Source of the DNA: Polychytrium aggregatum
Taxonomy: Eukaryota; Chytridiomycota; Chytridiomycetes; Polychytriales
Direction of reading: 5' to 3'
Length of the DNA stretch: 64,000 nt
NCBI RefSeq assembly: GCF_025602895.1
Contig: NW_026516253.1
Location: 1 to 64,000 of the forward strand
Shown here: piece by piece, positions 4,446-30,782 of the stretch
Layout: every line of letters begins with the position of its first letter
How positions within the stretch are numbered: the stretch's first letter is position 1
Program-made: the position numbers and the translations under genes
The notes under the pieces: generated by a model
Seen by the model: only the letters and a program-made list of their open reading frames with translations
The model's database searches: none
Told to the model about the DNA's origin: nothing

Positions 4446-5803
4446 TCAGTCCGAAGCAACACGGACTCTGAAACCGAGCGGCGAGGCGGCACTTACAGAC
4501 TGGTCTGAGGAGCAACTGGCTTGTCGAATCGCTTTGCGCAAATCGTCGTGAGCCTTCATGTCAAAGGGTGAGCTCGCGAAGAGCTGGAGCTCGCGCATAA
4601 AGATTGGAGCGGCATCATGGAGAAAGGGACGAAGGGCGTCGAGCGATGCAGATGATTCGATGGAATGCCTGGACACAGAAGAATTGAATGATTTGTTCCG
4701 AGGAAAACGACGATGGTAGAGCGTCATGCTCACACGGAACCTACGCTTTGATTATTCCAAGCACAAGCTCGGTAACAAAATCGACGCTTTCCGATTCGAG
4801 GAGAATCTTCAAGTCCCGCCGATCCACGGTCTGAGTCGGGCAAGGAGCGGAGGCGACTTCTCCAAAGCCTTGGGGGCTAAATGAGTCATAAATCGGAGAC
4901 TGTTTCCAACAATAAGAACATCGGCGGAAGACAGCGACGAGGACAGGGTGATGAGCACATACTCGAGTCGCGAAGCTTGCGACCCCGTCGCGGATATGAT
5001 GTCGGGTGGAGCCATCTCTTATCGTCATATATGCGTCGTCGATAGCATGACGGGTCGTTGATGGACGACTGGCCATTGATGAGGGTCGGAGGGAATGCAT
5101 GCGAACGGCCAATAGGAGGACGTCGTGGCCGATAAGGAGAAGATCGAATGCGTGGACGTTCCAGATCCGGAAAGACTTGCTGAAGTGGGGAGAGAGTTGT
5201 GAGAAATGAAGCACACGAAAGAACACAGATATGACTGATCCACAGAAGTTGCGAGTTGACGCACCCGAAGATAGGAACTAGAGGACTGGATGTTGTAGAG
5301 AATAGCCACAATACTCTGCTTGCAGAGGGGGCAACAGCGCGGCGTTCGTCGGGCCCAAGTGACGACTGCAGAAATAGCAGAATGAATCTGAGAACACGGA
5401 GGGTTAAACAGATGAAGCCAAAAGACAGTCATGAATGAGACGGAAAACACTTACGAAAGCAGGGATCGACAAAGGCCAAATTGTCAACGGATGAAGACAA
5501 ATGGGACATTCGGCAGGAAATGAAGGTGAGGCATTGGGGACTTCGATCATTGGAATTTCCGCTGTGTGAGCGGAGGAGTCGGACGAATCAAGGGAGGGCA
5601 GCAGGGAGGCATACTGTCGGGGAAGGGTGTGGAGCAAGGGAATCGGAGGAGAGGTGCTGGGATACAAGGGCCTCGACTCTGACGACGGAGATGCAGACGG
5701 AGATGGGAGATATGGATGGAGATATGGATGGAGATGGAGATGGAGATATGGATGGAGATGGAGATGGAGATGGAGATGGAGATATGGATGGCGAGCCCGA
5801 CAT
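4446..5803 (-). CDS. Topors-like RING E3 ubiquitin/SUMO ligase (frame-broken)
   Basis: Exon 1 (5803-5455) starts MSGSPSIS with a Ser/Pro repeat and reaches CPICLHP. Exon 2 (5387-5265) ends the RING with CCPLCKQSIVAILYNIQ, a Topors hallmark. Later exons carry LARLRPW, RRDLKILLESESVDFV and, at about 4,700-4,500, LRPFLHDAAPIFMRELQLF followed by SSPFDM, as in the conserved Topors C-terminal half. As written, the central RING residues are out of frame. Two compensating single-base shifts, near 5,492 and at about 5,366, hide VDPC and HSFCYFC. A third shift lies near 4,820 and an extra G in exon 1 near 5,706. Exon 1 lies inside the left arm of the giant inverted repeat. It is either a decayed gene or a miscalled consensus; Topors family identity is solid. 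Confidence 0.75.
5698..5792. repeat. GGAGAT-type hexamer array coding (Ser/Pro)n
   Basis: About 15 copies of GGAGAT/GGATGG-like hexamers encode the Ser-Pro-rich N terminus of the Topors-like protein on the minus strand. The right-arm copy (about 28,010-28,105) is in frame throughout. This one has an extra G (GATGGGAG) that shifts the frame. Confidence 0.7.
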
Positions 5804-5992
5804 TATGACCACTGTTGGGAGCAAGATCGATTTTGGAAGTGCAGATGAGAGCGCTGGAGACACAGGGACAAGTCTTTGGCAGGAGAAGCGGTCAGAGAAA
5901 GCAGGACAGGGATGACCGAAGAGCTCGGCACACGGCGAGGTGATTGCTACAGGATAGCCACCAGACCGATGATGTTTGGGTGAGATTGGGAC

Positions 5993-6205
5993 TCAATCGA
6001 CATGGTCGCGGTTGAATAAAGACGAGAGGATATGACCACAAGGATACAGATATGCAAGTGTAAAGGCCAAACCAGAGAGAATGGGTCGATGCGAGAGCGA
6101 CTCCATGTCGGAGATGCCGGCTCGAATAAACTGGGCAAGGCCGGGGATTTGGACAGTGAAAGTGGCAACGGCAGCCGATCTGGCTAAGACAAAGGGTCGA
6201 TCCAA
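5993..6205 (-). CDS. Hypothetical ORF, outer part of left arm
   Basis: A roughly 70-codon frame, without an ATG at its 5' limit, carries VATFTVQIPGLAQFIRAGIS and a hydrophobic SGLAFTLAYLYPCGHILS. It ends in TGA. The equivalent in the right arm (about 27,600-27,815) is broken by an extra A. Taking the longer base run from one arm at each discordant homopolymer extends the frame upstream by about 40 codons, which argues that a real exon exists. Family not recognised; possibly membrane-associated. Confidence 0.3.
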   Translation of the reverse strand: MDRPFVLARSAAVATFTVQIPGLAQFIRAGISDMESLSHRPILSGLAFTLAYLYPCGHILSSLFNRDHVD

Positions 6206-6814
6206 TGGGCAAAAGCGATTGCGTACCGACCAAATCTTGCTTCAGATTGAAAGGCCAGCAGGCTGGAGCGGGTGTCGGAGGGACGAGCAACGGCAGCCAG
6301 AGGAGAGCGACGAAGGGCAAAGATCGACAGGCGGATTGGAGCACCGACAGGTCAGCCCAAACAGGCAAGGGATGAGACGGAGCACAGAGCCCAACGGCGC
6401 AGAATCCACGGCTGCTTGCCCGAGGCCGTAGTGGGCCGCGTGGGCATGCAGCTCAGACCAACAAACTGACAGGATCAAAATTGCCAAGAGTGAAGCATAG
6501 ACGTGATTGTTGGTATGAAGCCGACGAGATGTAGAGAGCAGATCGAGAAATACTCGAAGGCTGACGATCGAAGCGGTGACGGAGCAGTTTGCCGAGATTG
6601 AGGCCACAAGCACACCAGCAGACGACAGTACCAACATCACAGGACGGCGCCGGACAGCAGCTCGTTGTGGATAGAGAAGGCTCGAAGCGAGGGGACAAAA
6701 ACAAAACAAAAAATGGACGATGATCCACAGAAGAGCCAGCACACTGGATGAGAGTACAAATGACGGACCACGGGAAGGAGAGTGGGAAGCGGGAAATGGA
6801 AGCAAAAAAAAGGC
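6206..6814. other. Flank 3' of the minus-strand tRNA pair, left arm
   Basis: It mirrors 26,991-27,600 of the right arm. Open frames are Cys/Ser/Leu-rich, with no family match, and differ between arms through indels. Part of it (about 6,560-6,814) recurs beside the tRNA pairs at 12,022, 19,733 and 30,707, so it is a mobile or duplicated tRNA flank more than a gene. Confidence 0.5.
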
Positions 6815-6887
6815 TAGCATCGGGAGGTTTCGATCCTCCGACCTCAGGGGTTATGAGCCCCGCGCGCTTCCACTGCGCTACGATGCT
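6815..6887 (-). tRNA. Initiator tRNA-Met(CAT), one extra base
   Basis: It matches the initiator tRNA-Met architecture of the other copies (A1:U72 start, CTCATAA anticodon loop, GATCGAAAC T-loop). It is 73 nt instead of 72 because the anticodon-stem run is GGGG, not GGG. A T-run on the coding strand follows its 3' end. It is either slightly damaged or miscalled; its right-arm counterpart at 26,919 is intact. Confidence 0.75.
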
Positions 6888-6895
6888 GAAGTAAT

Positions 6896-6979
6896 TGACG
6901 AGGAGTGGGATTCGAACCCACGCCTCCGGGGAGATCACGGCCTTTAACGTGACGCCTTAGACCAACCGGCCATCTCGCC
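6896..6979 (-). tRNA. tRNA-Leu(AAG), damaged copy
   Basis: This is the counterpart of the intact gene at 26,828. It has an extra base in the acceptor/T-stem region, an extra T in the anticodon loop (TTTAACG on the plus strand) and a missing base in the D arm. Such a molecule would probably not fold or decode normally. Indels of this kind also suggest consensus error. Confidence 0.7.
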
Positions 6980-7825
6980 TTGATTTCGATCAACAATATA
7001 TACAATATCATCCCAATTCTATCGATCCAGTTTCCATAGAACCATAGGCTCTGTCACTCATATAACAGCTCAGCCCTATGGCCGCTCCGAACCTGTTTTT
7101 ATTCAATATATTGTATTCTGTCTCTGCGGCCGTATTATATTTAATCAGTTCCCCGTGGGTTTTCCGCATTTCGACACATTTTGGACTATTTGAGTGGCCC
7201 ACGGGTCCCACCCCGGAAGATTTGCTGGGTCGGACTGTCCATTCAGCGAGTCCCTATTTCAGGTCGTGAAAAATATGTTTCATATTAGTTGGCAGGACTA
7301 TTAGGGCCTGCTACATGATGAGTTTCTCGCTTTCTAGCTTGTAAATCTTTCCTGGTGTGTATCAGAACAATGGGCCTGACACCTTCGGTCTCGAACTTGA
7401 TCCGTCAAATAATATTTCTATGGCTCCCGCTTGGGCGTTCAAGGCTTCATCCTCATCTATGCAAGCCGGTGCGTGTTATCGGCCGATTTCTACCTCGATT
7501 TTGCCGTTGTATCTCTGTTTTAGTGCAGATATGATATAAACTGTGAATATCCGAGAAAACCTCTGTCCTCGACCATACTGTTCCGATGTATAGTCTGCGT
7601 GGAATGGTTTGGTCCGAACTTGATTCAGATTCTCTCCGTTTTGTTCTCAGCGCGAATGAGTACATCGACTGATTTCCGTGCTTGGATAATGACTGTGCAT
7701 TAGGGGTCAGCATGAATGGTTTGACCGATCGGATTTGTGGATCCCGTGGTCGAATCACTGTCCTTGTCGAAGGTTATGATCATCAAAAATGCGGCGCTCC
7801 TGTACTTACATGAACAGGCCAGGCC
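6980..7825. other. AT-rich arm sequence, no gene seen
   Basis: It mirrors 25,983-26,827. Its first about 150 bases (to about 7,135) also recur at 30,866-31,015. The short ORFs here are not supported by conservation between arms. Confidence 0.5.
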
Positions 7826-8143
7826 TCACTTAACGTCACTGTAGTGGAACTTTTCAAAGTATGGTTGGTCCTTGATTGCTGCTGATGAAACAGGTAATAA
7901 ATGCAATCTTCCTGTTGTTATGGGCAGTCCACAGTAGTGGTATGGTGCTTCGTGTGATGTCGCGCGGACTATGCGAGACAGCTGGCTCAGGCAGAATGTC
8001 TGTGTCCTGTGGAGCCATCCCGTTTCATTTCCGGGATGGCATCGAGGGCAAAGCCAGATCCCGTCATGAATCACGGGAACATGCGATATGTGATTGTTGG
8101 GGACTTGACCGAAGGTTTCCGATGGCCAAGCCAGCTTGGACAT
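7826..8143 (-). CDS. Hypothetical 105-aa arm protein (left copy)
   Basis: The ORF starts MSKLAWPSETFGQ and ends KFHYSDVK-stop; it is the same length and frame as the right-arm copy at 25,665-25,982. It contains CPRCH, then C and YHYCG further on, so a small zinc-binding fold is possible, but the spacing fits no family I know. It sits in a GC-rich island within AT-rich arm DNA, about 165 bases downstream of a TATA box. Preservation of the frame while neighbouring sequence shows indels between arms supports coding. Confidence 0.4.
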   Translation of the reverse strand: MSKLAWPSETFGQVPNNHISHVPVIHDGIWLCPRCHPGNETGWLHRTQTFCLSQLSRIVRATSHEAPYHYCGLPITTGRLHLLPVSSAAIKDQPYFEKFHYSDVK

Positions 8144-8270
8144 GCTGGCGCTGCTCTCTTCGTCCTGACCACCATTCGTTCGGGGTTTTCTGTAACGGAC
8201 GGGTACGGAGCTGGGACGGGGACGGTGCCTTGGAGCGAGAAGTATATTCAGACGGATAAAACAGAAGACT

Positions 8271-8334
8271 CCTCTTGCTGGGCCTGTCCCGGGGAGGGCG
8301 GAGTGCCCTTTTATAGGCCCAGCCCAGCAAGAGG
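8271..8334 (-). promoter_or_regulatory. TATA box nested in a 13-bp perfect inverted repeat
   Basis: CCTCTTGCTGGGC at 8271-8283 is perfectly complementary to GCCCAGCAAGAGG at 8322-8334. The TATAAAAG element (minus strand, 8308-8315) lies between them. The right arm has the same arrangement at 25,472-25,535. The position upstream of the 105-aa ORF fits a core promoter. The flanking repeat could be an operator-like dimer site or a hairpin. Confidence 0.55.
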
Positions 8335-8399
8335 ACGGGGCAGTGTCAGCCTGCCGCGCACATGTGGCGGCGTGCCGGCCGTCACATTTTCCATCGATG

Positions 8400-9996
8400 C
8401 AAAAATACGGTGACATCAATAATAGCGCCAAAATACTCGAGGAACCCAATTTTATGGTTTAGGGCTTGTATGAATGCAGGTCCGTTTGCTTGTCGGCGTG
8501 GTTGTCCGGAAAAGAAAAAGAATATAGACCTCCCATTAGGGGGGGGGCGGAAACTCGGATTTGTTCCGGTGACCATGTGCCCCAAATATGCTACTAGCAG
8601 CCTCCATAATTTTCAGGTAATGTTTACTTGGACTAAATCAATATCTGGAAGCTGGCGCGCAGCGCCCTCGATTCCGCGTTCAAATTTAATTTGATAATAT
8701 AGCTTAAGCCTATTCGCGCCAAAATAACACAGAAGTACCGTAATCCTTTCGCGTTTTAAAGCCATTAACCATGCTGGGGGGACGTTACCCTGTTGATCTG
8801 GATTATCCTGAGTGGTTCCCAATATAAAATGACAATTAAAGGATCGGGTTACGCGTGAATACCTTGAAGTTGTACTTTGAAGCTTCATGAGCCGTGCGCG
8901 GGTGAGTAATGCGCCTCGAGCATAGTCCCATCATCCTGACGAGTCCACTCAATCTCATAGCAATCTGGTACCAGAGTACCTTAAAATACCACCGATACTA
9001 CAAACTGAAGATGCGTTTGAGTCTGCGATTCTCCCACGCTTGATCAGCCTGACTGGGTATTTCTTGGGTCACGGGTTGATCAAAGATCGGCTGGCCAATA
9101 TCTTGTCTAGCTCGAGCATCATCGCTCCGATGGGTTGATGCGACACCTGTTCATAGAAGACTATTCTGTCGAATATGGAAAACCCAAGTAACCTGAACAA
9201 CAGATTGATATATAAAACATATTGAGATTGGACCGAGTGCTGAACCAGTCGACATTCAGCTCAAGCTTTGACGACTTTGGTCGAAGCCTTACTCCCAAAG
9301 CAGCCTGTCACTAGCCTAGATAACACACACAGCGCGTTGGTTAAATGATTGTGTAGGGCCACTGAAAAAATATAATGTAGGAGTAGTGATTGCCAGATTA
9401 TAGACATAGGCCGAACGCATTTAAAAACAGAGGTACGATGTGCTTGCTAGGCTGATTCTCTACGTATTCTGATTAGGAACTAATTCGATCGCGCGATCGC
9501 AATCTTGAGCCTCCCACAACTTCGATATTTATCGAGTCTATCAATTTTTTGATTGTCAAAAATCTAATGAATAACTGGGCAAGTCATTTCATTCACTGTC
9601 AGCTCGACTGACCGATTTTTAAGCCATATTGATAGTTCGGGAACTATTTTTTGTTTTCATGAAGGTATTGCTGCGAATATTTTCCCGGCTGCTCATCTGC
9701 CCCGGTGGAGTTCGCGGTCAGCAAACGGAATCAAAACGAAAATATGATTAGATAAAGCATCTATAAAATATCTGATGAATGATGAGATAGTCAGAATATG
9801 TCGATGTCCATATTCAAAAACATATGATTTGCTGTTCGGTTCGGAAGCGTACTTCATCGTCCAGTCGTCAAATTCTGAATAATTACAATATGGGGTGTCT
9901 GAATGAGGATTTTTATTAAACCCATCCCAGGACAGCAAAAGTATCGATAAAATTGATGCAATCGAGTAGTGGAAGAGAAAAATAGCAAAAAAGGCC
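8400..9996. other. AT-rich arm sequence, no gene seen
   Basis: It mirrors about 23,816-25,430. It contains a 14-bp palindrome CGATCGCGCGATCG near 9,488-9,501, also present near 24,309-24,322. No coding frame is preserved between arms. Confidence 0.5.
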
Positions 9997-10069
9997 TAGC
10001 ATCGGGAGGTTTCGATCCTCCGACCTCAGGGTTATGAGCCCCCGCGCGCTTCCACTGCGCTACGATGCT
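9997..10069 (-). tRNA. Initiator tRNA-Met(CAT), one extra base
   Basis: Same gene as the intact copy at 23,744-23,815, but with CCCCC instead of CCCC in the D-arm/anticodon-stem region, giving 73 nt. The anticodon loop CTCATAA and the T-loop with AUCG are intact. Confidence 0.8.
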
Positions 10070-10077
10070 GAAGCAAG

Positions 10078-10160
10078 TGACGAGAGTGGGATTCGAACCC
10101 ACGCCTCCGGAGAGATCACGGCCTTAACGTGACGCCTTAGACCAACTCGGCCATCTCGCC
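10078..10160 (-). tRNA. tRNA-Leu(AAG)
   Basis: An 83-nt class II tRNA with a long variable arm. Acceptor GGCGAGA pairs TCTCGTC, the anticodon stem TCACG/CGTGA encloses loop TTAAGGC (anticodon AAG), the T-arm is GTGGG-TTCGAAT-CCCAC and the discriminator is A. It lies 8 nt upstream of the tRNA-Met on the same strand. Confidence 0.93.
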
Positions 10161-10873
10161 TTGAGATCGTTTAAAAAAATTAAAAATATAAACTATTTGA
10201 TAATACCAGATCAAGCCTCCCCCGATCACACATTTGCTTTCGCTGTCGTGCACAAGTCGTTGGGGTCTCACAAACTGTAGACCCCAGTATTTCATTCTAA
10301 GCAAATATTATAAAATGTTACAGATTATCGCAGCAAATTCCTCAGAGTGTTTTCTATGGCTTACATAGAACCGATGTTGCTGTGATGAGGCTTCTGCATC
10401 CATATTACGTAATTTATTAATAGTATATTTATTTTCATATTCCCAAAGGGCGGAAGCAAGTATGCAAGCCATCAATGTCTACGTGACACTTGAGAAATCA
10501 ATTTTTCGATGGAACTAACTTCGGTAGCCACATAGAGAGCTTACAGGCATCTCCACAGGAAGGTTTCTGGCTCACGCCAGATTCAGCTGAGTTATTCTGA
10601 ACAAAGAATTGAACTTGGTTCCCAGAGCTTTCGCTACTGGGTGGGTGTGGCTTAATCCCTATTACGTGTGTGTGTATAGAAGTTTTTATGCGGATAAAAA
10701 GAATCTCTCGCATAATAAAAAATATACCAACAGAAAGTACATACATAGAGCACACATTGTTTCTGTATTCCTCCTGTACATACTATTCTCAGCATCAGGA
10801 CAAGAACAGGCGTTCCCATCAAAAAGGCAATGACTATGCGCCTCTACGAAAAGGAAGGAAATCAAGCAAGGTA
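10161..10873. other. AT-rich arm sequence, no gene seen
   Basis: It mirrors about 22,940-23,652. Hydrophobic short ORFs (for example around 10,670-10,830) are present in both arms but are AT-driven and not convincing. Confidence 0.4.
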
Positions 10874-11356
10874 ATGTCGATCGCAGGCACCTACAAATGG
10901 GATGGAGACCCTGTCCTGACCGCGCGGATTGCCAGTGATATCAGCCGCTCAAGCCCGAAGAATGTTCCTCTGGCGGGTCAGAGGTTTCCCTCCCAAACTG
11001 GTGGAGCGCGCATAAAGCCTGGACCCAATAGTCCCAAAGTCCCCGTGAACAGGAAACATGCGTCGGAATGTGTCCGAGCCGACGACCGTCTTGACAAGTA
11101 CGTACACCCCACGACGATTCGCGAAGGCATCACGTACATCGGGCTTGCAACCGGCACACCCCCCAAGCTGGCTCGAGTGCCCGCAAGAACCAGTCACCAT
11201 CGACCAGGAAAACTGAGCAAATGGTGTGCCAGTCGCGAACGAATCCTCAACAACAGACCAGCGATCTGGCTGAATGTCGTGGCGGTGTTGGGTGACATCG
11301 CAGCTCAGTGTCTGTTGTGGACGCCAATCATTCGTATGCGCCAATCGGTCGTATGA
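10874..11356 (+). CDS. Hypothetical arm ORF with direct-repeat paralogue (left copy)
   Basis: A plausible start MSIAGTYKWDGDP leads to a basic protein with PNSPKVPVNRKHASE, YVHPTTIREGITYIGLATG and KLARVPAR. The right arm has one full-length copy (22,598-22,939) and a partial one at about 20,539-20,700. Differences between the two right-arm copies include several synonymous third-position changes and no stop, which favours this frame over the opposite-strand frame (MPVKLFPQ...). The left copy has an extra T and an extra A relative to the right, changing two stretches. Family unknown. Confidence 0.35.
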   Translation: MSIAGTYKWDGDPVLTARIASDISRSSPKNVPLAGQRFPSQTGGARIKPGPNSPKVPVNRKHASECVRADDRLDKYVHPTTIREGITYIGLATGTPPKLARVPARTSHHRPGKLSKWCASRERILNNRPAIWLNVVAVLGDIAAQCLLWTPIIRMRQSVV

Positions 11357-11857
11357 GCCATGCACGACAATAGGGGCCTGAGGAAACAGTTTCACAGGCA
11401 TATGTCAGCACATGTCAGCACATGGAAGTTAGAGTTGCAGATTCCAAACTCTCACTGGACGGATGAGTTAGGCAAAGCTTGACATCGCCGCCCCTCCGCA
11501 AACAGCTCCCCAAGAGACAGGGAGCTGCAGTGATGATTATAAACTGTCCTGGTTAGTAAGGCCCAGTGCCAGTGCCAGTGCCTGGAAAGGCATTTGGATC
11601 GACACTTATTATATATTGATTGGGCTGAATTGTTTGGGATGTTGCGGATACGCTTCAGCATATACGGAAGCTCAAAGGATTTGAACTTGGGGGGGGGGTG
11701 CTGTCCAAAGAAACACAGGGTGAAAAATGAAAGATGAAAGTGTGATGCACGAGAGCTTGAAATAGAAAGTCACGCGCGGTGAGCACTGGGGTGATGGTGG
11801 CGGTCTTCTGTAGATTTTATAATGTTTATATATTTATTTTACTGTAATAGCAAACAA
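11357..11857. other. Arm sequence between hypothetical ORF and tRNA pair
   Basis: It mirrors 19,897-20,400. It includes a short CAGTGC(C) tandem run near 11,565-11,585 and a G-run near 11,690-11,697. No gene seen. Confidence 0.4.
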
Positions 11858-11940
11858 GGCGAGATGGCCGAGTTGGTCTAAGGCGTCACGTTAAGGCCGT
11901 GATCTCTCCGGAGGCGTGGGTTCGAATCCCACTCTCGTCA
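11858..11940 (+). tRNA. tRNA-Leu(AAG)
   Basis: Intact 83-nt class II tRNA, identical in design to the copy at 10,078-10,160. The anticodon loop TTAAGGC gives AAG. The downstream tRNA-Met begins after the 8-nt spacer ATTACTTC. Confidence 0.93.
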
Positions 11941-11948
11941 ATTACTTC

Positions 11949-12021
11949 AGCATCGTAGCGCAGTGGAAGCGCGCGGGGCTCATAACCCTGAGGTCGGAGG
12001 ATCGAAAACCTCCCGATGCTA
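11949..12021 (+). tRNA. Initiator tRNA-Met(CAT), one extra A
   Basis: Starts AGCATCG and ends CGATGCTA with loop CTCATAA. The T-loop reads GATCGAAAAC with one A more than the intact copies, giving 73 nt. A TTTTTT tract follows two bases after the gene, a normal Pol III stop. Confidence 0.8.
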
Positions 12022-12487
12022 GCCTTTTTTGCTTCCATTTCCCGCTTCCCACTCTCCTTCCCGTGGTCCGTCATTTGTACTCTCATCCCAGTGTGCTAGC
12101 TCTTCTGTGGATCATGTCCCTCGCTTCGAGCCTTCTCTTTATCCGCAACGAGCTGCTGTCCGGCGCCGTCCTGTGTTGTTGATACTGTTGCCAGGCGGTG
12201 TATTGGTCCGTTTTGGTTGACTGGAGAATATGGACAATAGCGAAGCCTCGTCCCAGCAATATTGGATTAATAATACCACACTATATCATATATCACTATC
12301 AATTCTTCAATAATATAGATTGGATGCAAAAAGGATTGTCGTTACAACTTTTCGAACCTTTCTTTCGAGGTTTGTTGGGTAATTTGCAGCATGATCTGTT
12401 CGACTCGAGCCGGGGGGGACTGGGAGGACTGGAAACCCATGGTTAGGTTTATAAGCCATATAAATAAAAGCGAAGAAAAAATAAAAA
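12022..12487. other. tRNA 3' flank and arm sequence
   Basis: The first about 160 bases repeat the 3' flank found after the tRNA pairs at 6,815, 19,734, 26,990 and 30,707. The rest mirrors 19,266-19,560. No gene seen. Confidence 0.5.
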
Positions 12488-12743
<256 letters not shown>

Positions 12744-13577
12744 ACTGATACATAAAATGTTTATGTAATTCTAGAATTATGAAATCCAAATGACTGCACT
12801 AATCCTAGTTGATTAATATGTTCGGTGATAAAGCCTGTGATGTAATAATGGCTAGATTCAATCCACCCTTGAAAGCTACCCGCTTCTTGCCTTGGCTAAA
12901 GCTTCCTTTCGGTGCAAGTGCATGAATAAGCGGTCGTTCTTCAGTTTAATTGTTTCTACTGGTCGTCATCGTGTTGCCATCCAAGAGGCCCAGCGATGCT
13001 CAGCGGTCTAAAGGATGCAGACGCTGGCTGATTAGCGTCGTTCCCATGGGGAGCGAGAGGATAAGATCCCAATCATCCTGAAGAGCCCATATTGCCCGCT
13101 TGACGTCCCAGGTGTACTCGGTGGAGTAAGCACCATCTGCTCTCTGCCCTGGCAATAATGCAAGCGACAGAAAGGCTCAGCAGATTCTAGCGTTTGGTGG
13201 CGCCGGATACGAACTACACATTCAAGGCACCTCCGTCCTGTTTACACGGGCATTCTTCGGACGAGGGCCGTCCAACCACTTTCTCCGCACACCCCGGCAG
13301 TTGCTGTTCCTTCCGCCCGCATCTGCCGTGGTTCAATGCCAGCTCGAATTGTCTTACCAGATGTCTTCAAGGCGCGCCACTTGAACGTGTCTGCTGGCGC
13401 GAATGCGGCGATGGCACCCACGTTTCCGATTTGCCGCCTCGTGCCTTTGCGTTCTTCGCACGTCGCCTCTCTGTCTCCCGTTGGCCTTCGACCTGCTGTC
13501 TCCCCTTCCTCTCCGTTCTTCATTCCAGTTTCGTGCGGTCTCTCTTCTTACGGCCGCTCTTGAACCCCGGTGCCACG
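12744..13577. other. Inner end of left arm and promoter side of the reductase gene
   Basis: 12,744-13,270 mirrors 18,571-19,090; the unique loop starts at 13,271. The bases before the reductase ATG at 13,578 are pyrimidine-rich. No separate gene is supported, although a frame beginning near 13,194 runs open into the reductase start. Confidence 0.4.
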
Positions 13578-19095: not shown

Positions 19096-19266
<171 letters not shown>

Positions 19267-19733
19267 TATTTTTATTTTTTCTTCGCTTTTATTTTATATG
19301 GCTTATAAACCTAACCATGGGTTTCCAGTCCTCCCAGTCCCCCCGGCTCGAGTCGAACAGATCATGCTGCAAATTACCCAACAAACCTCGAAAGAAAGGT
19401 TCGAAAAGTTGTAACGACAATCCTTTTTGCATCCAATCTATATTATTGAAGAATTGATAGTGATATATGATATAGTGTGGTATTATTAATCCAATATTGC
19501 TGGGACGAGGCTTCGCTATTGTCCATATTCTCCAGTCAACCAAACGGACCAATACACCGCCTGGCAACAGTATCAACAACACAGGACGGCGCCGGACAGC
19601 AGCTCGTTGCGGATAAAGAGAAGGCTCGAAGCGAGGGACATGATCCACAGAAGAGCTAGCACACTGGGATGAGAGTACAAATGACGGACCACGGGAAGGA
19701 GAGTGGGAAGCGGGAAATGGAAGCAAAAAAGGC

Positions 19734-19805
19734 TAGCATCGGGAGGTTTCGATCCTCCGACCTCAGGGTTATGAGCCCCGCGCGCTTCCACTGCGCTACG
19801 ATGCT
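19734..19805 (-). tRNA. Initiator tRNA-Met(CAT)
   Basis: Intact 72-nt gene. A1:U72 acceptor end, D-arm GCGCAGTGGAAGCGC, anticodon stem CGGGG/CCCTG with loop CTCATAA, T-loop GATCGAAAC as in fungal initiator tRNAs. It is followed on its strand by a T-run. Confidence 0.95.
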
Positions 19806-19813
19806 GAAGTAAT

Positions 19814-19896
19814 TGACGAGAGTGGGATTCGAACCCACGCCTCCGGAGAGATCACGGCCTTAACGTGACGCCTTAGACCAACTCGGCCATCTCGCC
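19814..19896 (-). tRNA. tRNA-Leu(AAG)
   Basis: Intact 83-nt class II tRNA, anticodon AAG, 8 nt upstream of the initiator tRNA-Met on the same strand. Confidence 0.95.
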
Positions 19897-20189
19897 TTGT
19901 TTGCTATTACAGTAAAATAAATATATAAACATTATAAAATCTACAGAAGACCGCCACCATCACCCCAGTGCTCACCGCGCGTGACTTTCTATTTTCAAGC
20001 TCTCGTGCATCACACTTTCATCTTTCATTTTTCACCCTGTGTTTCTTTGGACAGCACCCCCCCCCCCAAGTTCAAATCCTTTGAGCTTCCGTATATGCTG
20101 AAGCGTATCCGCAACATCCCAAACAATTCAGCCCAATCAATATATAATAAGTGTCGATCCAAATGCCTTTCCAGGCACTGGCACTGGCA

Positions 20190-20705
20190 CTGGCCTTACT
20201 AACCAGGACAGTTTATAATCATCACTGCAGCTCCCTGTCTCTTGGGGAGCTGTTTGCGGAGGGGCGGCGATGTCAAGCTTTGCCTAACTCATCCGTCCAG
20301 TGAGAGTTTGGAATCTGCAACTCTAACTTCCATGTGCTGACATGTGCTGACATATGCCTGTGAAACTGTTTCCTCAGGCCCCTATTGTCGTGCATGGCTC
20401 ATACGACCGATTGGCGCATACGAATGATTGGCGTCCACAACAGACACTGAGCTGCGATGTCACCCAACACCGCCACGACATTCAGCCAGATCGCTGGTCT
20501 GTTGTTGAGGATTCGTTCGCGACTGGCACACCATTTGCTCAGTTTTCCTGGTCGATGGTGACTGGTCTTGCGGGCACTCGAGCCAGCTTGGGGGGTGTGC
20601 CGGTTGCAAGCCCGATGTACGTGATGCCTTCGCGAATCGTCGTGGGGTGTACGTACTTGTCAAGACGGTCGTCGGCTCGGACATATTCCGACGCATGTTT
20701 CCTGT
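20190..20705. repeat. Direct repeat A in right arm
   Basis: It matches 22,225-22,760 in the same orientation with scattered substitutions. It runs from CACTGG...TTACTAACCAGGACA through the MPVKLFPQ frame to GGCTCGGACA. The left arm has one hybrid copy: like A on the tRNA side and like B beyond GGCTCGGAC. Confidence 0.85.
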
Positions 20706-21026
20706 TCACGGGTATTTGAGGGAAGACTCGCCTGTAGTCGTCATATACCTGCCTCATCTCGAGCGCCTGTATGCCTCACGACCCCATCCAGGCTCAGCTT
20801 TTGATATCTGTCTTCCTGCCGTTTGCACCAGTTAGGACTGGCAACAAAGATCACCCATCACCTCGTCGCCTCTTGCGTTATTAATAAACACTCTGTTGTT
20901 CCCAATGACGATTTCGACGCAATTGGTAATATACCCTCTGTTCAAGTCGATTTTCATTCACCAAAATTTATCGGACACATTCTATCCCATTTGAAACATC
21001 GTCTACTCAGAACAATATCCCCATAC
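20706..21026. other. Right-arm-only sequence, no gene seen
   Basis: Absent from the left arm. It lies between direct repeat A and the solo LTR, with short ORFs only. Confidence 0.4.
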
Positions 21027-21224
21027 TGTTACGTGGACTCTGGCGGAGGGGAGGGGTAACCTAAGGCCTGTAGTCACCGTGAAGATACGTATATTGGCGA
21101 GAACAACAAGATAACGAAGGACAGGGGAGACAAGGGGCTCGGAGGGTCGAAGGCTATATAGGAGAGGCAAGCAAGGAGAACACATGGCCTGGGTTCCAGG
21201 CAGGTGTGGCTTAGGGTTGTAACA
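21027..21224. mobile_element. Solo LTR of a retrotransposon
   Basis: 198 bp beginning TGTTAC and ending GTAACA (6-bp perfect terminal inverted repeat), flanked on both sides by the 5-bp direct repeat CATAC (21,022-21,026 and 21,225-21,229). An internal TATA-like CTATATAGG lies near 21,153. The size, TG...CA ends and 5-bp target duplication fit a Ty3- or Ty1-type LTR left after recombination between two LTRs. No internal coding sequence is present. Confidence 0.85.
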
Positions 21225-21229
21225 CATAC

Positions 21230-22224
21230 AGTCGCAAATCAAATATATTATTACACTCTTCCGTGTCCAGTTTCTAGCTTTCGTATCGATTTATCAAAAA
21301 GATATTTCCGCCAAGGTCAATGGAATACCACTCAGTCGCAGTCCGAGTCCTTGCACAAGACACATTGTGGGTGAACTAATTTTTGGTGGGATACCACCAT
21401 TTAAAACTGATCTGCGTAGCTGCGACGATGATCATTCAAGCGGGGATCGGCTTATGATCTTCAGTAATTACCAATTTATATAAGCCTCGAACATTCGGCG
21501 TCCTATGGTTATCAGTATACTGCATATCATATTGAGATCTGTAAAGCTGCAGTATGTTCAGTACATAAATAAATGCAATACAACACAATACACATGTAAA
21601 TACGATTTTACACAAAATCAGAAGTGTATGAATAAATATTGACACGCAAAAAGGGCACATATCAATGTTAAAACCGACCTTCAAACACTCCTGACTCAGA
21701 GCTCACAAACTGCACTTTGGCTTCTTATGGTGGAATATTGCGCTTAATTTTAATTTTAATTTTCTGAACTGCTTCTATACCGATACTGACAAAGTATCGA
21801 TTTATGACTGCTTTTTACTAATGCATAAATACCCAAGGCTTCGATCAAATATCTACTTAAGGTAGTACTACTCCTTGATTTAGGCAAACTACTTGGGTTT
21901 GAAAGAATGGTGAAGAGAGAGGCTTATCGGGAAGCTTATGTAATATAACTCACCAGGCTGGATAGTGAAACAGCGACTTTCCACACATTGCCCAAAATTA
22001 TTACAATTTACCCGCATTTCTCCACACCAATCGAGTTCCTCTTTCATGGTCAGCTTGTATCTTTTATTTTACTTTTCAAATTAACTAGCCAATTAACGCT
22101 TGGCGAGGACGTTTAAACTACTTTTGGCATTACTACATTTCGACCCTGCTTGAGAAATTAGATTCGGAATCTGATGCTGAGAATAGTCAATGGGTGGGTC
22201 TTTATTAAGACTTGCCTTAGCGTC
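21230..22224. other. Right-arm-only AT-rich sequence, no gene seen
   Basis: Lies between the solo LTR and direct repeat B. It is AT-rich with no coding frame supported by family motifs, and has no left-arm counterpart. Confidence 0.4.
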
Positions 22225-22760
22225 CCTGGCGGGCTCTGGCACTGGGTGTTGGTCTTACTAACCAGGACATTTTACAACCACCACTGCAGCTCCCTGTCTC
22301 TTGGGGAGCTGTTTGCGGAGGGGCGGCGATGTCAAGCTTTGCCTAACTCATCCATCCAGTGACAGTTTGGAATCTGCAGCTCCGACCTCCATGTGCTGAC
22401 ATGTGCTGACATATGCCTGTGAAACTGTTTCCTCAGGCCCCTATTGTCGTGCATGGCTCATACGACCGATTGGCGCATACGAATGATTGGCGTCCACAAC
22501 AGACACTGAGCTGCGATGTCACCCAACACCGCCACGACATTCAGCCAGATCGCTGGTCTGTTGTTGAGGATTCGTTCGCGACTGGCACACCATTTGCTCA
22601 GTTTTCCTGGTCGATGGTGACTGGTCTTGCGGGCACTTGAGCCAGTTTGGGGAGTGCGCCGGTTGCAAGCCCGATGTAAGTGACGCCTTCGGAGATCCTC
22701 GCAGGGTGTACATACTGCTCGAGACGGTTCTTGGCTCGGACACATTCCGACGCATGTTTC
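22225..22760. repeat. Direct repeat B in right arm
   Basis: Partner of 20,190-20,705, offset 2,059 bp at the inferred crossover (20,681 against 22,740). Substitutions relative to A are enriched in a roughly 120-base stretch before the crossover. Confidence 0.85.
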
Positions 22761-22939
22761 CTGTTCACGGGGACTTTGGGACTATTGGGTCCAGGCTTTA
22801 TGCGCGCTCCACCAGGTTTGGGAGGGAAACCTCTGACCCGCCAGAGGAACATTCTTCGGGCTTGAGCGGCTGATATCACTGGCATCCGCGCGGTCAGGAC
22901 AGGGTCTCCATCCCATTTGTAGGTGCCTGCGATCGACAT
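22598..22939 (-). CDS. Hypothetical arm ORF (right copy)
   Basis: 113 codons from MSIAGTYKWDGDP to VTIDQEN-stop, with PNSPKVPVNRKHASE and GVTYIGLATGALPK. Compared with the partial paralogue at 20,539-20,700 there are conservative changes (D/E, I/V, K/Q) and several silent ones. That pattern is more like selection on this frame than on the opposite strand. Function unknown. Confidence 0.35.
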   Translation of the reverse strand: MSIAGTYKWDGDPVLTARMPVISAAQARRMFLWRVRGFPPKPGGARIKPGPNSPKVPVNRKHASECVRAKNRLEQYVHPARISEGVTYIGLATGALPKLAQVPARPVTIDQEN

Positions 22940-23652
22940 TACCTTGCTTGATTTCCTTCCTTTTCGTAGAGGCGCATAGTCATTGCCTTTTTGATGGGAA
23001 CGCCTGTTCTTGTCCTGATGCTGAGAATAGTATGTACAGGAGGAATACAGAAACAATGTGTGCTCTATGTATGTACTTTCTGTTGGTATATTTTTTATTA
23101 TGCGAGAGATTCTTTTTATCCGCATAAAAACTTCTATACACACACACGTAATAGGGATTAAGCCACACCCACCCAGTAGCGAAAGCTCTGGGAACCAAGT
23201 TCAATTCTTTGTTCAGAATAACTCAGCTGAATCTGGCGTGAGCCAGAAACCTTCCTGTGGAGATGCCTGTAAGCTCTCTATGTGGCTACCGAAGTTAGTT
23301 CCATCGAAAAATTGATTTCTCAAGTGTCACGTAGACATTGATGGCTTGCATACTTGCTTCCGCCCTTTGGGAATATGAAAATAAATATACTATTAATAAA
23401 TTACGTAATATGGATGCAGAAGCCTCATCACAGCAACATCGGTTCTATGTAAGCCATAGAAAACACTCTGAGGAATTTGCTGCGATAATCTGTAACATTT
23501 TATAATATTTGCTTAGAATGAAATACTGGGGTCTACAGTTTGTGAGACCCCAACGACTTGTGCACGACAGCGAAAGCAAATGTGTGATCGGGGGAGGCTT
23601 GATCTGGTATTATCAAATAGTTTATATTTTTAATTTTTTTAAACGATCTCAA
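22940..23652. other. AT-rich arm sequence, no gene seen
   Basis: Mirror of about 10,161-10,873. It contains an (AC)n-like ACACACAC run near 23,138. Confidence 0.4.
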
Positions 23653-23735
23653 GGCGAGATGGCCGAGTTGGTCTAAGGCGTCACGTTAAGGCCGTGATCT
23701 CTCCGGAGGCGTGGGTTCGAATCCCACTCTCGTCA
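23653..23735 (+). tRNA. tRNA-Leu(AAG)
   Basis: Intact 83-nt class II tRNA with anticodon loop TTAAGGC. Spacer to the next tRNA is CTTGCTTC. Confidence 0.95.
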
Positions 23736-23743
23736 CTTGCTTC

Positions 23744-23815
23744 AGCATCGTAGCGCAGTGGAAGCGCGCGGGGCTCATAACCCTGAGGTCGGAGGATCGA
23801 AACCTCCCGATGCTA
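23744..23815 (+). tRNA. Initiator tRNA-Met(CAT)
   Basis: Intact 72-nt gene, followed by GCCTTTTTTG, a Pol III terminator. Confidence 0.95.
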
Positions 23816-25471
23816 GCCTTTTTTGCTATTTTTCTCTTCCACTACTCGATTGCATCAATTTTATCGATACTTTTGCTGTCCTGGGATGGGTTTAATAAAA
23901 ATCCTCATTCAGACACCCCATATTGTAATTATTCAGAATTTGACGACTGGACGATGAAGTACGCTTCCGAACCGAACAGCAAATCATATGTTTTTGAATA
24001 TGGACATCGACATATTCTGACTATCTCATCATTCATCAGATATTTTATAGATGCTTTATCTAATCATATTTTCGTTTTGATTCCGTTTGCTGACCGCGAA
24101 CTCCACCGGGGCAGATGAGCAGCCGGGAAAATATTCGCAGCAATACCTTCATGAAAACAAAAAATAGTTCCCGAACTATCAATATGGCTTAAAAATCGGT
24201 CAGTCGAGCTGACAGTGAATGAAATGACTTGCCCAGTTATTCATTAGATTTTTGACATCAAAAAATTGATAGACTCGATAAATATCGAAGTTGTGGAGGC
24301 TCAAGATTGCGATCGCGCGATCGAATTAGTTCCTAATCAGAATACGTAGAGAATCAGCCTAGCAAGCACATCGTACCTCTGTTTTTAATGCGTTCGGCCT
24401 ATGTCTATAATCTGGCAATCACTACTCCTACATTATATTTTTTCAGTGCCCTACACAATCATTTAACCACGCGCTGTTGTGTTATCTAGGCTAGTGACAG
24501 GCTGCTTTGGGAGTAAGGCTTCGACCAAAGTCGTCAAAGCTTGAGCTGAATGTCGACTGGTTCAGCACTCGGTCCAATCTCAATATGTTTTATATATCAA
24601 TCTGTTGTTCAGGTTACTTGGGTTTTCCATATTCGACAGAATAGTCTTCTATGAACAGGTGTCGCATCAACCCATCGGAGCGATGATGCTCGAGCTAGAC
24701 AAGATATTGCCAGCCGATCTTTGATCAACCCGTGACCCAAGAAATACCCAGTCAGGCTGATCAAGCGTGGGAGAATCGCAGACTCAAACGCATCTTCAGT
24801 TTGTAGTATCGGTGGTATTTTAAGGTACTCTGGTACCAGATTGCTATGAGATTGAGTGGACTCGTCAGGATGATGGGACTATGCTCGAGGCGCATTACTC
24901 CACCGCGCACGGCTCATGAAGCTTCAAAGTACAACTTCAAGGTATTCACGCGTAACCCGATCCTTTAATTGTCATTTTATATTGGGAACCACTCAGGATA
25001 ATCCAGATCAACAGGGTAACGTCCCCCCAGCATGGTTAATGGCTTTAAAAACGCGAAAGGATTACGGTACTTCTGTGTTATTTTGGCGCGAATAGGCTTA
25101 AGCTATATTATCAAATTAAATTTGAACGCGGAATCGAGGGCGCTGCGCGCCAGCTTCCAGATATTGATTTAGTCCAAGTAAACATTACCTGAAAATTATG
25201 GAGGCTGCTAGTAAGCATATTTGGGGCACATGGTCACCGGAACAAATCCGAGTTTCCGCCCCCCCCCTAATGGGAGGTCTATATTCTTTTTCTTTTCCGG
25301 ACCACCACGCCGACAAGCAAACGGACCTGCATTCATACAGCCCTAAACCCATAAAATTGGGTTCCTCGAGTATTTTGGCGCTATTATTGATGTCACCGTA
25401 TTTTTGCATCGATGGAAAATGTGACGGCCGGCACGCCGCCACATGTGCGCGGCAGGCTGACACTGCCCCGT
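23816..25471. other. AT-rich arm sequence, no gene seen
   Basis: Mirror of 8,335-9,996. A 14-bp palindrome CGATCGCGCGATCG lies near 24,309. No frame is preserved in both arms. Confidence 0.5.
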
Positions 25472-25535
25472 CCTCTTGCTGGGCTGGGCCTATAAAAGGG
25501 CACTCCGCCCTCCCCGGGACAGGCCCAGCAAGAGG
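25472..25535 (+). promoter_or_regulatory. TATA box nested in a 13-bp perfect inverted repeat
   Basis: CCTCTTGCTGGGC (25,472-25,484) and its perfect complement GCCCAGCAAGAGG (25,523-25,535) flank TATAAAAG (25,491-25,498). The 105-aa ORF starts about 165 bases downstream of the TATA box. The arrangement is identical in the left arm. Confidence 0.55.
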
Positions 25536-25664
25536 AGTCTTCTGTTTTCATCCGTCTGAATATACTTCTCGCTCCAAGGCACCGTCCCCGTCCCAGCTCC
25601 GTACCCGTCCGTTACAGAAAACCCCGAACGAATGGTGGTCAGGACGAAGAGAGCAGCGCCCAGC

Positions 25665-25982
25665 ATGTCCAAGCTGGCTTGGCCATCGGAAACCTTCGGT
25701 CAAGTCCCCAACAATCACATATCGCATGTTCCCGTGATTCATGACGGGATCTGGCTTTGCCCTCGATGCCATCCCGGAAATGAAACGGGATGGCTCCACA
25801 GGACACAGACATTCTGCCTGAGCCAGCTGTCTCGCATAGTCCGCGCGACATCACACGAAGCACCATACCACTACTGTGGACTGCCCATAACAACAGGAAG
25901 ATTGCATTTATTACCTGTTTCATCAGCAGCAATCAAGGACCAACCATACTTTGAAAAGTTCCACTACAGTGACGTTAAGTGA
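25665..25982 (+). CDS. Hypothetical 105-aa arm protein (right copy)
   Basis: Same start, length and stop as 7,826-8,143. Contains CPRCH, a later C and YHYCG. An upstream in-frame ATG (MVVRTKRAAPS) at about 25,632 would add 11 residues, but the left arm is not in frame there, so the inner ATG is preferred. No family recognised. Confidence 0.4.
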   Translation: MSKLAWPSETFGQVPNNHISHVPVIHDGIWLCPRCHPGNETGWLHRTQTFCLSQLSRIVRATSHEAPYHYCGLPITTGRLHLLPVSSAAIKDQPYFEKFHYSDVK

Positions 25983-26827
25983 GGCCTGGCCTGTTCATGT
26001 AAGTACAGGAGCGCCGCATTTTTGATGATCATAACCTTCGACAAGGACAGTGATTCGACCACGGGATCCACAAATCCGATCGGTCAAACCATTCATGCTG
26101 ACCCCTAATGCACAGTCATTATCCAAGCACGGAAATCAGTCGATGTACTCATTCGCGCTGAGAACAAAAACGGAGAGAATCTGAATCAAGTTCGGACCAA
26201 ACCATTCCACGCAGACTATACATCGGAACAGTATGGTCGAGGACAGAGGTTTTCTCGGATATTCACAGTTTATATCATATCTGCACTAAAACAGAGATAC
26301 AACGGCAAAATCGAGGTAGAAATCGGCCGATAACACGCACCGGCTTGCATAGATGAGGATGAAGCCTTGAACGCCCAAGCGGGAGCCATAGAAATATTAT
26401 TTGACGGATCAAGTTCGAGACCGAAGGTGTCAGGCCCATTGTTCTGATACACACCAGGAAAGATTTACAAGCTAGAAAGCGAGAAACTCATCATGTAGCA
26501 GGCCCTAATAGTCCTGCCAACTAATATGAAACATATTTTTCACGACCTGAAATAGGGACTCGCTGAATGGACAGTCCGACCCAGCAAATCTTCCGGGGTG
26601 GGACCCGTGGGCCACTCAAATAGTCCAAAATGTGTCGAAATGCGGAAAACCCACGGGGAACTGATAAATATAATACGGCCGCAGAGACAGAATACAATAT
26701 ATTGATAAAAACAGGTTCGGAGCGGCCATAGGGCTGAGCTGTTATATGAGTGACAGAGCCTATGGTTCTATGGAAACTGGATCGATAGAATTGGGATGAT
26801 ATTGTATATATTGTTGATCGAAATCAA
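25983..26827. other. AT-rich arm sequence, no gene seen
   Basis: Mirror of 6,980-7,825. The last about 150 bases before the tRNA pair recur at 30,866-31,015. Confidence 0.5.
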
Positions 26828-26910
26828 GGCGAGATGGCCGAGTTGGTCTAAGGCGTCACGTTAAGGCCGTGATCTCCCCGGAGGCGTGGGTTCGAATCCC
26901 ACTCTCGTCA
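26828..26910 (+). tRNA. tRNA-Leu(AAG)
   Basis: 83-nt class II tRNA, structurally intact. It differs from the other copies by one base in the variable arm (CTCCCCGG for CTCTCCGG), a difference shared with the left-arm copy at 6,896, which marks the two as mirror partners. Confidence 0.93.
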
Positions 26911-26918
26911 ATTACTTC

Positions 26919-26990
26919 AGCATCGTAGCGCAGTGGAAGCGCGCGGGGCTCATAACCCTGAGGTCGGAGGATCGAAACCTCCCGATGCTA
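26919..26990 (+). tRNA. Initiator tRNA-Met(CAT)
   Basis: Intact 72-nt gene; the spacer from tRNA-Leu is ATTACTTC; followed by GCCTTTTTTTGC. Confidence 0.95.
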
Positions 26991-28001
26991 GCCTTTTTTT
27001 GCTTCCATTTCCCGCTTCCCACTCTCCTTCCCGTGGTCCGTCATTTGTACTCTCATCCCAGTGTGCTGGCTCTTCTGTGGATCATCGTCATTTTTTGTTT
27101 TTGTTTTTGTCCCCTCGCTTCGAGCCTTCTCTATCCACAACGAGCTGCTGTCCGGCGCCGTCCTGTGATGTTGGTACTGTCGTCTGCTGGTGTGCTTGTG
27201 GCCTCAATCTCGGCAAACTGCTCCGTCACCGCTTCGATCGTCAGCCTTCGAGTATTTCTCGATCTGCTCTCTACATCTCGTCGGCTTCATACCAACATCA
27301 CGTCTATGCTTCACTCTTGGCAATTTTGATCCTGTCAGTTTGTTGGTCTGAGCTGCATGGCCCACGCGGCCCACTACGGCCTCGGGCAAGCAGCCGTGGA
27401 TTCTGCGCCGTTGGGCTCTGTGCTCCGTCTCATCCCTTGCCTGTTTGGGCTGACCTGTCGGTGCTCCAATCCGCCTGTCGATCTTTGCCCTTCGTCGCTC
27501 TCCTCTGGCTGCCGTTGCTCGTCCCTCCGACACCCGCTCCAGCCTGCTGGCCTTTCAATCTGAAGCAGATTTGGTCGGTACGCAATCGCTTTTGGCCCAT
27601 TGGATCGACCCTTTGTCTTAGCCAGATCGGCTGCCGTTGCCAACTTTCACTGTCCAAATCCCCGGCCTTGCCCAGTTTATTCGAGCCGGCATCTCCGACA
27701 TGGAGTCGCTCTCGCATCGACCCATTCTCTCTGGTTTGGCCTTTACACTTGCATATCTGTATCCTTGTGGTCATATCCTCTCGTCTTTATTCAACCGCGA
27801 CCATGTCGATTGAGTCCCAATCTCACCCAAACATCATCGGTCTGGTGGCTATCCTGTAGCAATCACCTCGCCGTGTGCCGAGCTCTTCGGTCATCCCTGT
27901 CCTGCTTTCTCTGACCGCTTCTCCTGCCAAAGACTTGTCCCTGTGTCTCAGCGCTCTCATCTGCACTTCCAAAATCGATCTTGCTCCCAACAGTGGTCAT
28001 A
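26991..28001. other. tRNA 3' flank and outer right-arm sequence
   Basis: Mirror of about 5,804-6,814. A long Cys/Ser-rich open frame (to 27,859) starts inside the tRNA and has no ATG of its own. The left arm breaks it, so I do not call it a gene. The hypothetical ORF of the left arm at 5,993 is frameshifted here by an extra A near 27,640. Confidence 0.45.
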
Positions 28002-28247
28002 ATGTCGGGCTCGCCATCCATATCTCCATCTCCATCTCCATCTCCATCTCCATCCATATCTCCATCTCCATCTCCATCCATATCTCCATCCATATCTCCA
28101 TCTCCGTCTGCATCTCCGTCGTCAGAGTCGAGGCCCTTGTATCCCAGCACCTCTCCTCCGATTCCCTTGCTCCACACCCTTCCCCGACAGTATGCCTCCT
28201 CCAACTTCGTCACTCAATCTTTGCTCTTCGTTTTCCTGCACCCGTGA
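28002..28247 (+). pseudogene. Truncated 5' end of Topors-like gene in right arm
   Basis: Starts MSGSPSISPSPS, with the same Ser/Pro array and LLHTLPRQYAS as exon 1 of the gene at 4,446-5,803. The match stops at 28,199, the arm edge, and the frame ends 16 codons later. No RING follows. The array is in frame here, unlike the left copy. Confidence 0.8.
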
Positions 28248-30707: not shown

Positions 30708-30778
30708 TAGTATCGGGAGGTGTCGATCCTCCAGTCTCTTGGGTTGAAAAAGCTCTGTGCTTCCACACTGTGCCAAAA
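30708..30778 (-). pseudogene. Decayed initiator tRNA-Met
   Basis: It occupies the tRNA-Met position next to the tRNA-Leu. The anticodon arm is destroyed (TTGGGTTGAAAAAGC on the plus strand), although the T-arm and acceptor remain recognisable. Confidence 0.8.
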
Positions 30779-30782
30779 TAAG

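Follow-up and report, generated by a model that had tools for sequence, protein, structure and literature searches.

A large tRNA-bearing inverted segmental duplication in the genome of the chytrid Polychytrium aggregatum

The DNA analysed here, which we refer to as the window, comprises bases 1-64000 of a 330,686 bp contig (NW_026516253.1; C366 in what follows) of the chytrid fungus Polychytrium aggregatum, whose assembly (GCF_025602895.1) comprises 64.7 Mb in 418 contigs. The window contains a near-perfect inverted repeat, the arms of which carry tRNA genes and flank a unique loop with a gene of the adenylation, carrier and reductase (A-T-R) type. The repeat is a genuine inverted segmental duplication, and mirrored tRNA genes, a pattern invisible to a reader of the window alone, are found at other places in the genome. 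We consider it probable that the duplication is the largest seen of a series of tRNA-bearing inverted repeats that were seeded at tRNA genes, and whose arms have been kept alike by recombination. What makes the locus of interest is then less the loop gene than the arms with their tRNA genes, which belong to a wider pattern.

Structure of the inverted repeat

Comparison of the window with itself by BLAST returned three inverted blocks: 5605-11582 with 28199-22232 (98.8% identity), 11035-12674 with 20718-19083 (99.0%), and 12566-13279 with 19276-18562 (98.9%). Read base by base, the edges are exact, the outer ones lying between 5604 and 5605 and between 28199 and 28200, and the inner ones between 13270 and 13271 and between 18570 and 18571. 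The arms measure 7,666 bp (left) and 9,629 bp (right), and the loop 5,300 bp. Given the length of the arms and their identity alone, a chance origin is excluded. A gene-conversion palindrome likewise has a unique spacer enclosed by two long inverted arms whose identity is very high. A sequence-only reading of the window had described arms of 7.7 and 9.6 kb around a unique 5.3-kb loop, sharp arm edges at 5,605/28,199 and 13,270/18,571, and tRNA genes and AT-rich DNA within the arms, and all of this was borne out. Twelve of the 13 tRNA genes called by ARAGORN in the window lie within the arms, as do 11 of the 12 RF00005 hits; the arms, which are AT-richer than most of the window, contain mirrored arrays of AT-only triplets. 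A search of the window for two telomere-like motifs, repeated three or more times in a row, gave no hit, and the loop had no match in a plasmid collection, in line with its eukaryotic origin. The main parts of the structure are as follows.

5605-13270, forward strand: short (left) arm (self-BLAST, base-by-base edges, list of differences)
13271-18570, forward strand: unique loop, between the self-BLAST arms (13290-18555 identical on contig C238)
18571-28199, reverse strand: long (right) arm (self-BLAST, base-by-base edges; 19241-28199 present on contig C378 at 99.92%)
12491-12744, forward strand: (AAT)n array of the left arm (contigs C364 and C378 begin inside such an array)
19097-19276, forward strand: (TTA)n array of the right arm, mirroring the left array

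Within the arms are six units, each composed of a tRNA-Leu and a tRNA-Met gene, which are arranged in mirror order. With the exception of the first, each was located by ARAGORN, RF00005 and a search with the unit itself.

6815-6979, reverse strand: tRNA-Met/tRNA-Leu unit, left arm copy 1 (Leu gene given a four-base anticodon, probably through an indel of the assembly)
9997-10160, reverse strand: tRNA-Met/tRNA-Leu unit, left arm copy 2
11858-12021, forward strand: tRNA-Leu/tRNA-Met unit, left arm copy 3
19734-19896, reverse strand: tRNA-Met/tRNA-Leu unit, right arm, mirrors copy 3
23653-23815, forward strand: tRNA-Leu/tRNA-Met unit, right arm, mirrors copy 2
26828-26990, forward strand: tRNA-Leu/tRNA-Met unit, right arm, mirrors copy 1
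30708-30865, reverse strand: diverged (83%) unit outside the arms (Leu gene alone recognised)

Divergence between the arms is very low. The first BLAST block contains 35 mismatches, of which 3 are in 5605-11034 and 32 in 11081-11579; in the latter interval, another copy of the repeat that occupies it (20174-20718) fits the left arm with only 2 mismatches. The outer arms (5605-11034 and its partner) differ by 3 substitutions and 35 gap columns in the pairwise BLAST alignment, and by 14 substitutions and 31 one-base gaps in a multiple alignment with other contigs. The division into substitutions and gaps thus varies with the alignment, and the differences are chiefly single-base gaps. The inner 506 bp (12760-13265) are identical between the two arms in the multiple alignment, and the right outer arm of C366 differs from the arm on contig C364 by no substitution and 4 gaps over 5.4 kb. 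Relative to the other contigs, the left end of C366 has more single-base gaps than they have among themselves: in the left flank, C364 and C378 align without gaps and with 1 substitution, while C366 shows 15 gaps against each. These gaps probably explain the odd four-base anticodon of the tRNA gene at 6896-6979.

The two arms also differ by a 2.06-kb segment, which is such as would be left by a deletion (or its reverse) between two direct copies of a 548-bp repeat.

11035-11582, forward strand: 548-bp repeat, the single copy of the short arm (self-BLAST, list of differences)
20174-20718, reverse strand: 548-bp repeat, inner copy of the long arm (self-BLAST, list of differences)
22232-22778, reverse strand: 548-bp repeat, outer copy of the long arm, 93% identical to the inner copy (self-BLAST)
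20719-22231, no strand assigned: 1.5 kb exclusive to the long arm, which distinguishes long from short arms on other contigs

Mirrored tRNA genes elsewhere in the genome

A search of the genome with the tRNA unit found tRNA-Leu copies on opposite strands of other contigs, and all three contigs that were fetched, C408, C223, and C157, have inverted arms. A general tRNA search, in which the best 63 of 1,357 candidates were scored, returned many neighbours of equal score on opposite strands, and seven more contigs were fetched on that ground. As all tRNA positions come from searches that scored the best candidates only, the counts given here are lower bounds. Near-identical arms extending well past the tRNA genes were found at the window locus and on six of the ten fetched contigs (719-1,973 bp): C408 (1,973 bp, 100%), C223 (719 bp, 99.2%), C157 (~0.94 kb, 98-100%), C15 (1,287 bp, 100%), C113 (~1.2 kb, 98.8%), and C13 (885 bp, 98.4%), with the arms of the last three running 731-1,055 bp beyond the tRNA genes.

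We therefore counted the orientation of neighbouring copies in eleven tRNA sets, which list 180 copies, haplotype duplicates and contig ends included (27 belong to the window locus, counted with its duplicate contigs). For 70 of the 180, the nearest neighbour of the same set within 25 kb is inverted, and adjacent pairs within that distance comprise 45 inverted and 15 direct ones. After haplotype contigs had been merged by hand into loci, 18 of 19 loci with a pair within 25 kb had an inverted pair, the other having only a direct one (p = 7.6e-5). When the window locus and the two query loci are excluded, the proportion is 15 of 16 (p = 5.2e-4), and when loci already visible in the general tRNA search are also set aside, it is 10 of 11 (p = 0.012). 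Random placement would give fewer than one close pair per set (0.03-0.6 in the seven sets computed). In 95.8 kb of control DNA without tRNA genes (from C366, C105, C364, and C378), there were no inverted repeats at E<1e-10; ~59 kb of this control is independent, since C105 repeats C366 and C378 repeats C364 (~37 kb of second haplotypes). Mirrored pairs with nearly equal spacing are present on two contigs each in five cases (C15/C333, C39/C257, C112/C164, C312/C70, and C18/C37).

The count includes all 40 rows of the search with the 164-bp tRNA unit, all 22 rows of a search with a Val-Ile tRNA pair, and 16 of the 63 rows of the general search (Lys, Trp, and Arg sets), in which the tRNA type on C146, C37, C40, and C114 was taken from equal scores. 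Rows left out were four partial matches on C46 to another tRNA, four 50-base matches, and seven weaker Gln-like matches, together with general-search rows for pairs counted elsewhere, for C32 (inverted, 18 kb), and for partners of another type on C40/C114. The Leu pair of C157, whose copies are 40 kb apart, lies beyond the 25-kb limit and was not counted. Merging of haplotype contigs was based upon similar spacing, the least certain merges being C367/C356 and C157/C416. Sets that share a locus were counted once each (Gln and Phe at C13; Gln and Thr at C113; Ala-Lys and Phe at C157; Phe and Pro at C112/C164), and the Ala-Lys pair of C157 was among those already visible in the general search.

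Two side observations concern the arrangement of these genes. First, C157 and C224 appear to be two forms of a single tRNA-rich region, in which a mirrored Ala-Lys/Phe-Pro copy listed on C157 is not listed on C224, and a mirrored Val-Ile copy listed on C224 is not listed on C157; this could be presence/absence variation of inverted partners. Second, direct tRNA copies are spaced 3,162-3,182 bp apart on the contigs of the window locus and 3,170-3,173 bp apart on C164/C112. Two 500-bp pieces of C164 share 265 bp at 90% with each other and have no match to the window, and the similar ~3.17-kb spacing is perhaps a coincidence.

tRNA genes stall replication forks and are hot spots of rearrangement. 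An inverted duplication could arise if replication stalled at a tRNA gene and template switching or strand exchange followed. Later recombination between the arms would copy one arm onto the other and sometimes turn the loop round, with the gene in the loop riding along as a passenger.

The locus on other contigs and its loop gene

Five further contigs carry parts or all of the locus. C238 (27.7 kb) contains the left flank, short arm, loop, long arm, and ~0.9 kb of the right flank, and its loop is identical to that of C366 (13290-18555). C219 (30 kb) contains the left flank, short arm, loop, and long arm, and then the left flank again; its loop has 2 substitutions and 36 gaps relative to that of C366. 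C364 (1.21 Mb) and C378 (283 kb) both start in an AAT array and run into the left flank, the former via the short arm and the latter via the long arm, and C105 starts within an outer arm and includes the right flank. The left flank accordingly adjoins the short arm in C366, C364, C238, and C219 (at one end), and the long arm in C378 and C219 (at the other end). One single-nucleotide polymorphism (SNP) in the left flank follows this division: the base is T where the long arm adjoins (C378 and the corresponding side of C219), and C where the short arm does (C364, C366, C238, and the other side of C219). Of two more variable columns, each is private to one contig.

In the 11-kb stretch between 2 and 13 kb, 5 substitutions separate C364 from C378, with few beyond 16 kb in the part fetched, and a 30-kb alignment of C105 with C366 contains 32 mismatches. 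Judged by these alignments, C364/C378 and C366/C105 look like the two haplotypes of each flank. Given two haplotypes, the short-arm junction of C364 and the long-arm junction of C378 are such as an inversion by arm-to-arm recombination would leave. At a second locus, C15 and C333 have the end of the loop and the arm in the same order, and the match stops at the arm edge, possibly the end of contig C333. We also observed that C364 and C378, otherwise nearly identical, differ by 89 substitutions in a 3-kb patch at 13-16 kb.

A number of observations weigh against seeding at tRNA genes, copying between arms, or inversion of the loop. On four of the ten fetched contigs (C46, C39, C257, and C18), the inverted match comprises the tRNA genes and 44, 7, 8, and 0 bp, respectively, and all ten were picked for mirrored-looking tRNA genes, such that they show the size of arms rather than an unbiased rate. 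The nearest neighbour within 25 kb is direct for 26 of the 180 copies and absent for 84. Direct pairs occur at the window locus, C408, and C112/C164, all of which also have inverted pairs, and on C28, which has a direct pair without any inverted one. Low divergence of the arms fits a recent duplication as well as it does gene conversion, and the arms of C219 have more substitutions, with 11 (and 41 gaps) between the two. The inversion case leans on one SNP, and the left flank at both ends of C219 is not what a simple inversion gives. Nor was the reciprocal junction, of the right flank with the short arm, seen on any contig; the earlier suggestion that the structure could invert has indirect support from the left flank, which meets both arm forms on different contigs, but falls short of proof. 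For C219, either a mis-join or a crossover joining two left flanks would be required, and a mis-join within the near-identical outer arm would be the simpler. An isochromosome reading of C219 was set aside in favour of the mis-join and is kept as a possibility only.

A broader proposal, which we put forward tentatively and regard as appreciably less likely than not to hold in full, is that many multi-copy tRNA genes in this genome exist as inverted twin cassettes, each with one to three genes lying in mirrored arms, seeded by RNA polymerase III (Pol III) transcription units, with recombination keeping the copies identical and loops flipping between haplotypes. The window locus would then stand at the extreme, its arms having grown to 7.7-9.6 kb, and C219 may be the trace of a crossover by which two left chromosome arms were joined. 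The mostly mirrored close tRNA copies, with arms from bare tRNA genes to 9.6 kb, would offer a natural series in which the start, growth, sameness, and decay of inverted duplications could be followed. They could also account for the lasting identity of scattered tRNA copies that do not form tandem arrays, and for the breaks of long-read assemblies at these sites.

The gene in the loop has the following position.

13578-17796, forward strand: multi-exon A-T-R gene (adenylation, carrier, thioester reductase), with start, end, and exon joints inferred by eye

Searches with single open frames identified the reductase domain with high significance (Pfam NAD_binding_4, 5.5e-53; NCBIfam TIGR01746, thioester reductase domain, 1.6e-64), the carrier domain just under its cut-off (Pfam PP-binding, 5.4e-4), and a weak and partial adenylation domain, also under its cut-off (Pfam AMP-binding, 5.7e-4). 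As for relatives of solved structure, the best of those listed are reductase domains from non-ribosomal peptide synthetase (NRPS) and polyketide synthase (PKS) enzymes, and carboxylic acid reductases. Matching exon blocks, separated by introns, are present in a paralog on C179 (compared by eye). The claim that the loop holds one complete A-T-R gene finds support in the carrier and reductase domains and in the paralog-like exon blocks; the adenylation domain is weak and partial, and a complete, unbroken gene is putative. When the best 40 of 166 candidates were scored, at least 37 other places, haplotype contigs included, matched the coding part at 76-85% nucleotide identity. The gene is one member of a large, strongly expanded family and, because of these related places elsewhere, a passenger rather than a special cargo. 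Near-identical copies of the loop are confined, among the matches listed, to C366, C238, and C219, and amplification mediated by the structure was not seen.

Several other repeats were recorded. One lies within the long arm.

22186-23015, no strand assigned: dispersed repeat with at least 32 further places in the genome at 76-94% (best 40 of 118 candidates, haplotype contigs included)

At 11 places this repeat is 137-139 bp from a Val-Ile tRNA pair (coordinates compared by eye), as would be seen with an element that targets tRNA genes or with a segment that carries them. A 754-bp element beside the C15 repeat (L039, 2747-3500) has at least 34 other places at ~100% identity (best 40 of 1,058 candidates) and is probably a recently active mobile element. 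Towards the right end of the window, a direct 582-bp repeat (97.8%) occupies 57511-58092 and 60721-61302, inside apparent neighbouring related genes on the minus strand, with a weaker related stretch at 63429-63611.

Alternative explanations and comparison with known systems

Of the other explanations, the one that survives best, though we think it unlikely, is a mobile element or composite transposon with tRNA genes in its ends or body. The dispersed repeat in the arms, with its position near Val-Ile tRNA pairs, and the abundant element adjoining the C15 repeat would both fit. However, the arm segments used as queries (164 bp and 6.1 kb) were found in full at this locus and on its duplicate contigs alone, no separate search being made with the extreme ends, and the fetched stretches of C408, C223, and C157 match the window by a tRNA gene with little around it and one 80-bp match. 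In addition, no target-site duplication was found by eye, the flanks at 5604 and 28200 being different, and the length of the arms varies from about the tRNA genes alone to 9.6 kb.

Marginally less probable is an assembly artefact, in which a fold-back or a mis-join of haplotypes made the mirrored arms. The left end of C366, C219, and C238 have many single-base gaps, C219 has the left flank at both ends, perhaps by a mis-join in its 5.4-kb near-identical outer arm, and C364 and C378 break inside the AAT array. Against this, the two flanks on C366 and on C238 are unlike each other, the loop is unique, and the arms differ by the 2.06-kb segment. Three contigs carry the loop between arms, and mirrored tRNA pairs occur at many loci, several of them on two contigs with nearly equal spacing. 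Because independent contigs carry the same structure, misassembly of the structure as a whole is disfavoured.

We give still less weight to a regional centromere of the inverted-repeat type, in which the arms would be inner repeats with tRNA boundaries and the loop the core. Fission yeast centromeres are described as a core with inverted imr repeats and tRNA clusters (PMC6538654), and centromeres of Candida tropicalis as 3-4 kb inverted repeats around a ~3 kb core (PMC7292649). As far as these descriptions go, the window locus is like them in having inverted repeats around a core, with tRNA genes near the core as in fission yeast, and in that isochromosomes are possible; the AT-richness of the arms and the left flank on both sides of C219, which would fit formation of an isochromosome, point the same way. 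In contrast to those centromeres, the core here is not gene-free, but holds a multi-exon gene of an expanded family. As a class, moreover, the loci are many and not one per chromosome, with several inverted tRNA pairs on C157 and two on C13. Among the matches listed, the arms themselves were found only at this locus and on its duplicate contigs. These objections apply to the class more than to the single locus.

Finally, that the repeat is a cassette holding the A-T-R gene for inversion or amplification (a cassette was one of three possibilities named in the sequence-only reading) is highly improbable: a whole gene does appear inside the loop and inversion may be polymorphic, but the family has its many places elsewhere while the arms recur whole only here among the matches listed, the loops of C408 and C223 hold other open frames (by eye, with no family search), and near-identical loop copies are as few as stated above.

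The favoured reading is still an inverted segmental duplication, probably seeded at tRNA genes. The earlier statement that no named class of element has this layout holds in part: fungal inverted-repeat centromeres, and inverted duplications generally, have a similar layout, but the mirrored tRNA genes elsewhere could not be seen from the window alone. The tendency of close tRNA neighbours of the same type to be inverted more often than direct is a pattern defined here, with no published class, and among the literature results listed, titles and the openings of abstracts gave no description of inverted tRNA pairs in a nuclear genome. Pairs of tRNA genes are described in Dictyostelium (PMC8163159), in a passage that is silent on inverted orientation, arm length, and conversion. 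Relative to what that passage describes, the close pairs here differ in being mostly inverted, with some in arms of 0.7-9.6 kb, and in occurring as clusters of one to three tRNA genes.

The structure may also be set beside the palindromes of primate Y chromosomes. These are gene-conversion palindromes, with long arms of very high identity, a single-copy spacer, and multicopy genes in the arms. The arms at the window locus carry tRNA genes rather than protein genes, and there is no known tie to a sex chromosome; otherwise the two have in common the near-identical long arms, the single-copy spacer, and multicopy genes within the arms.

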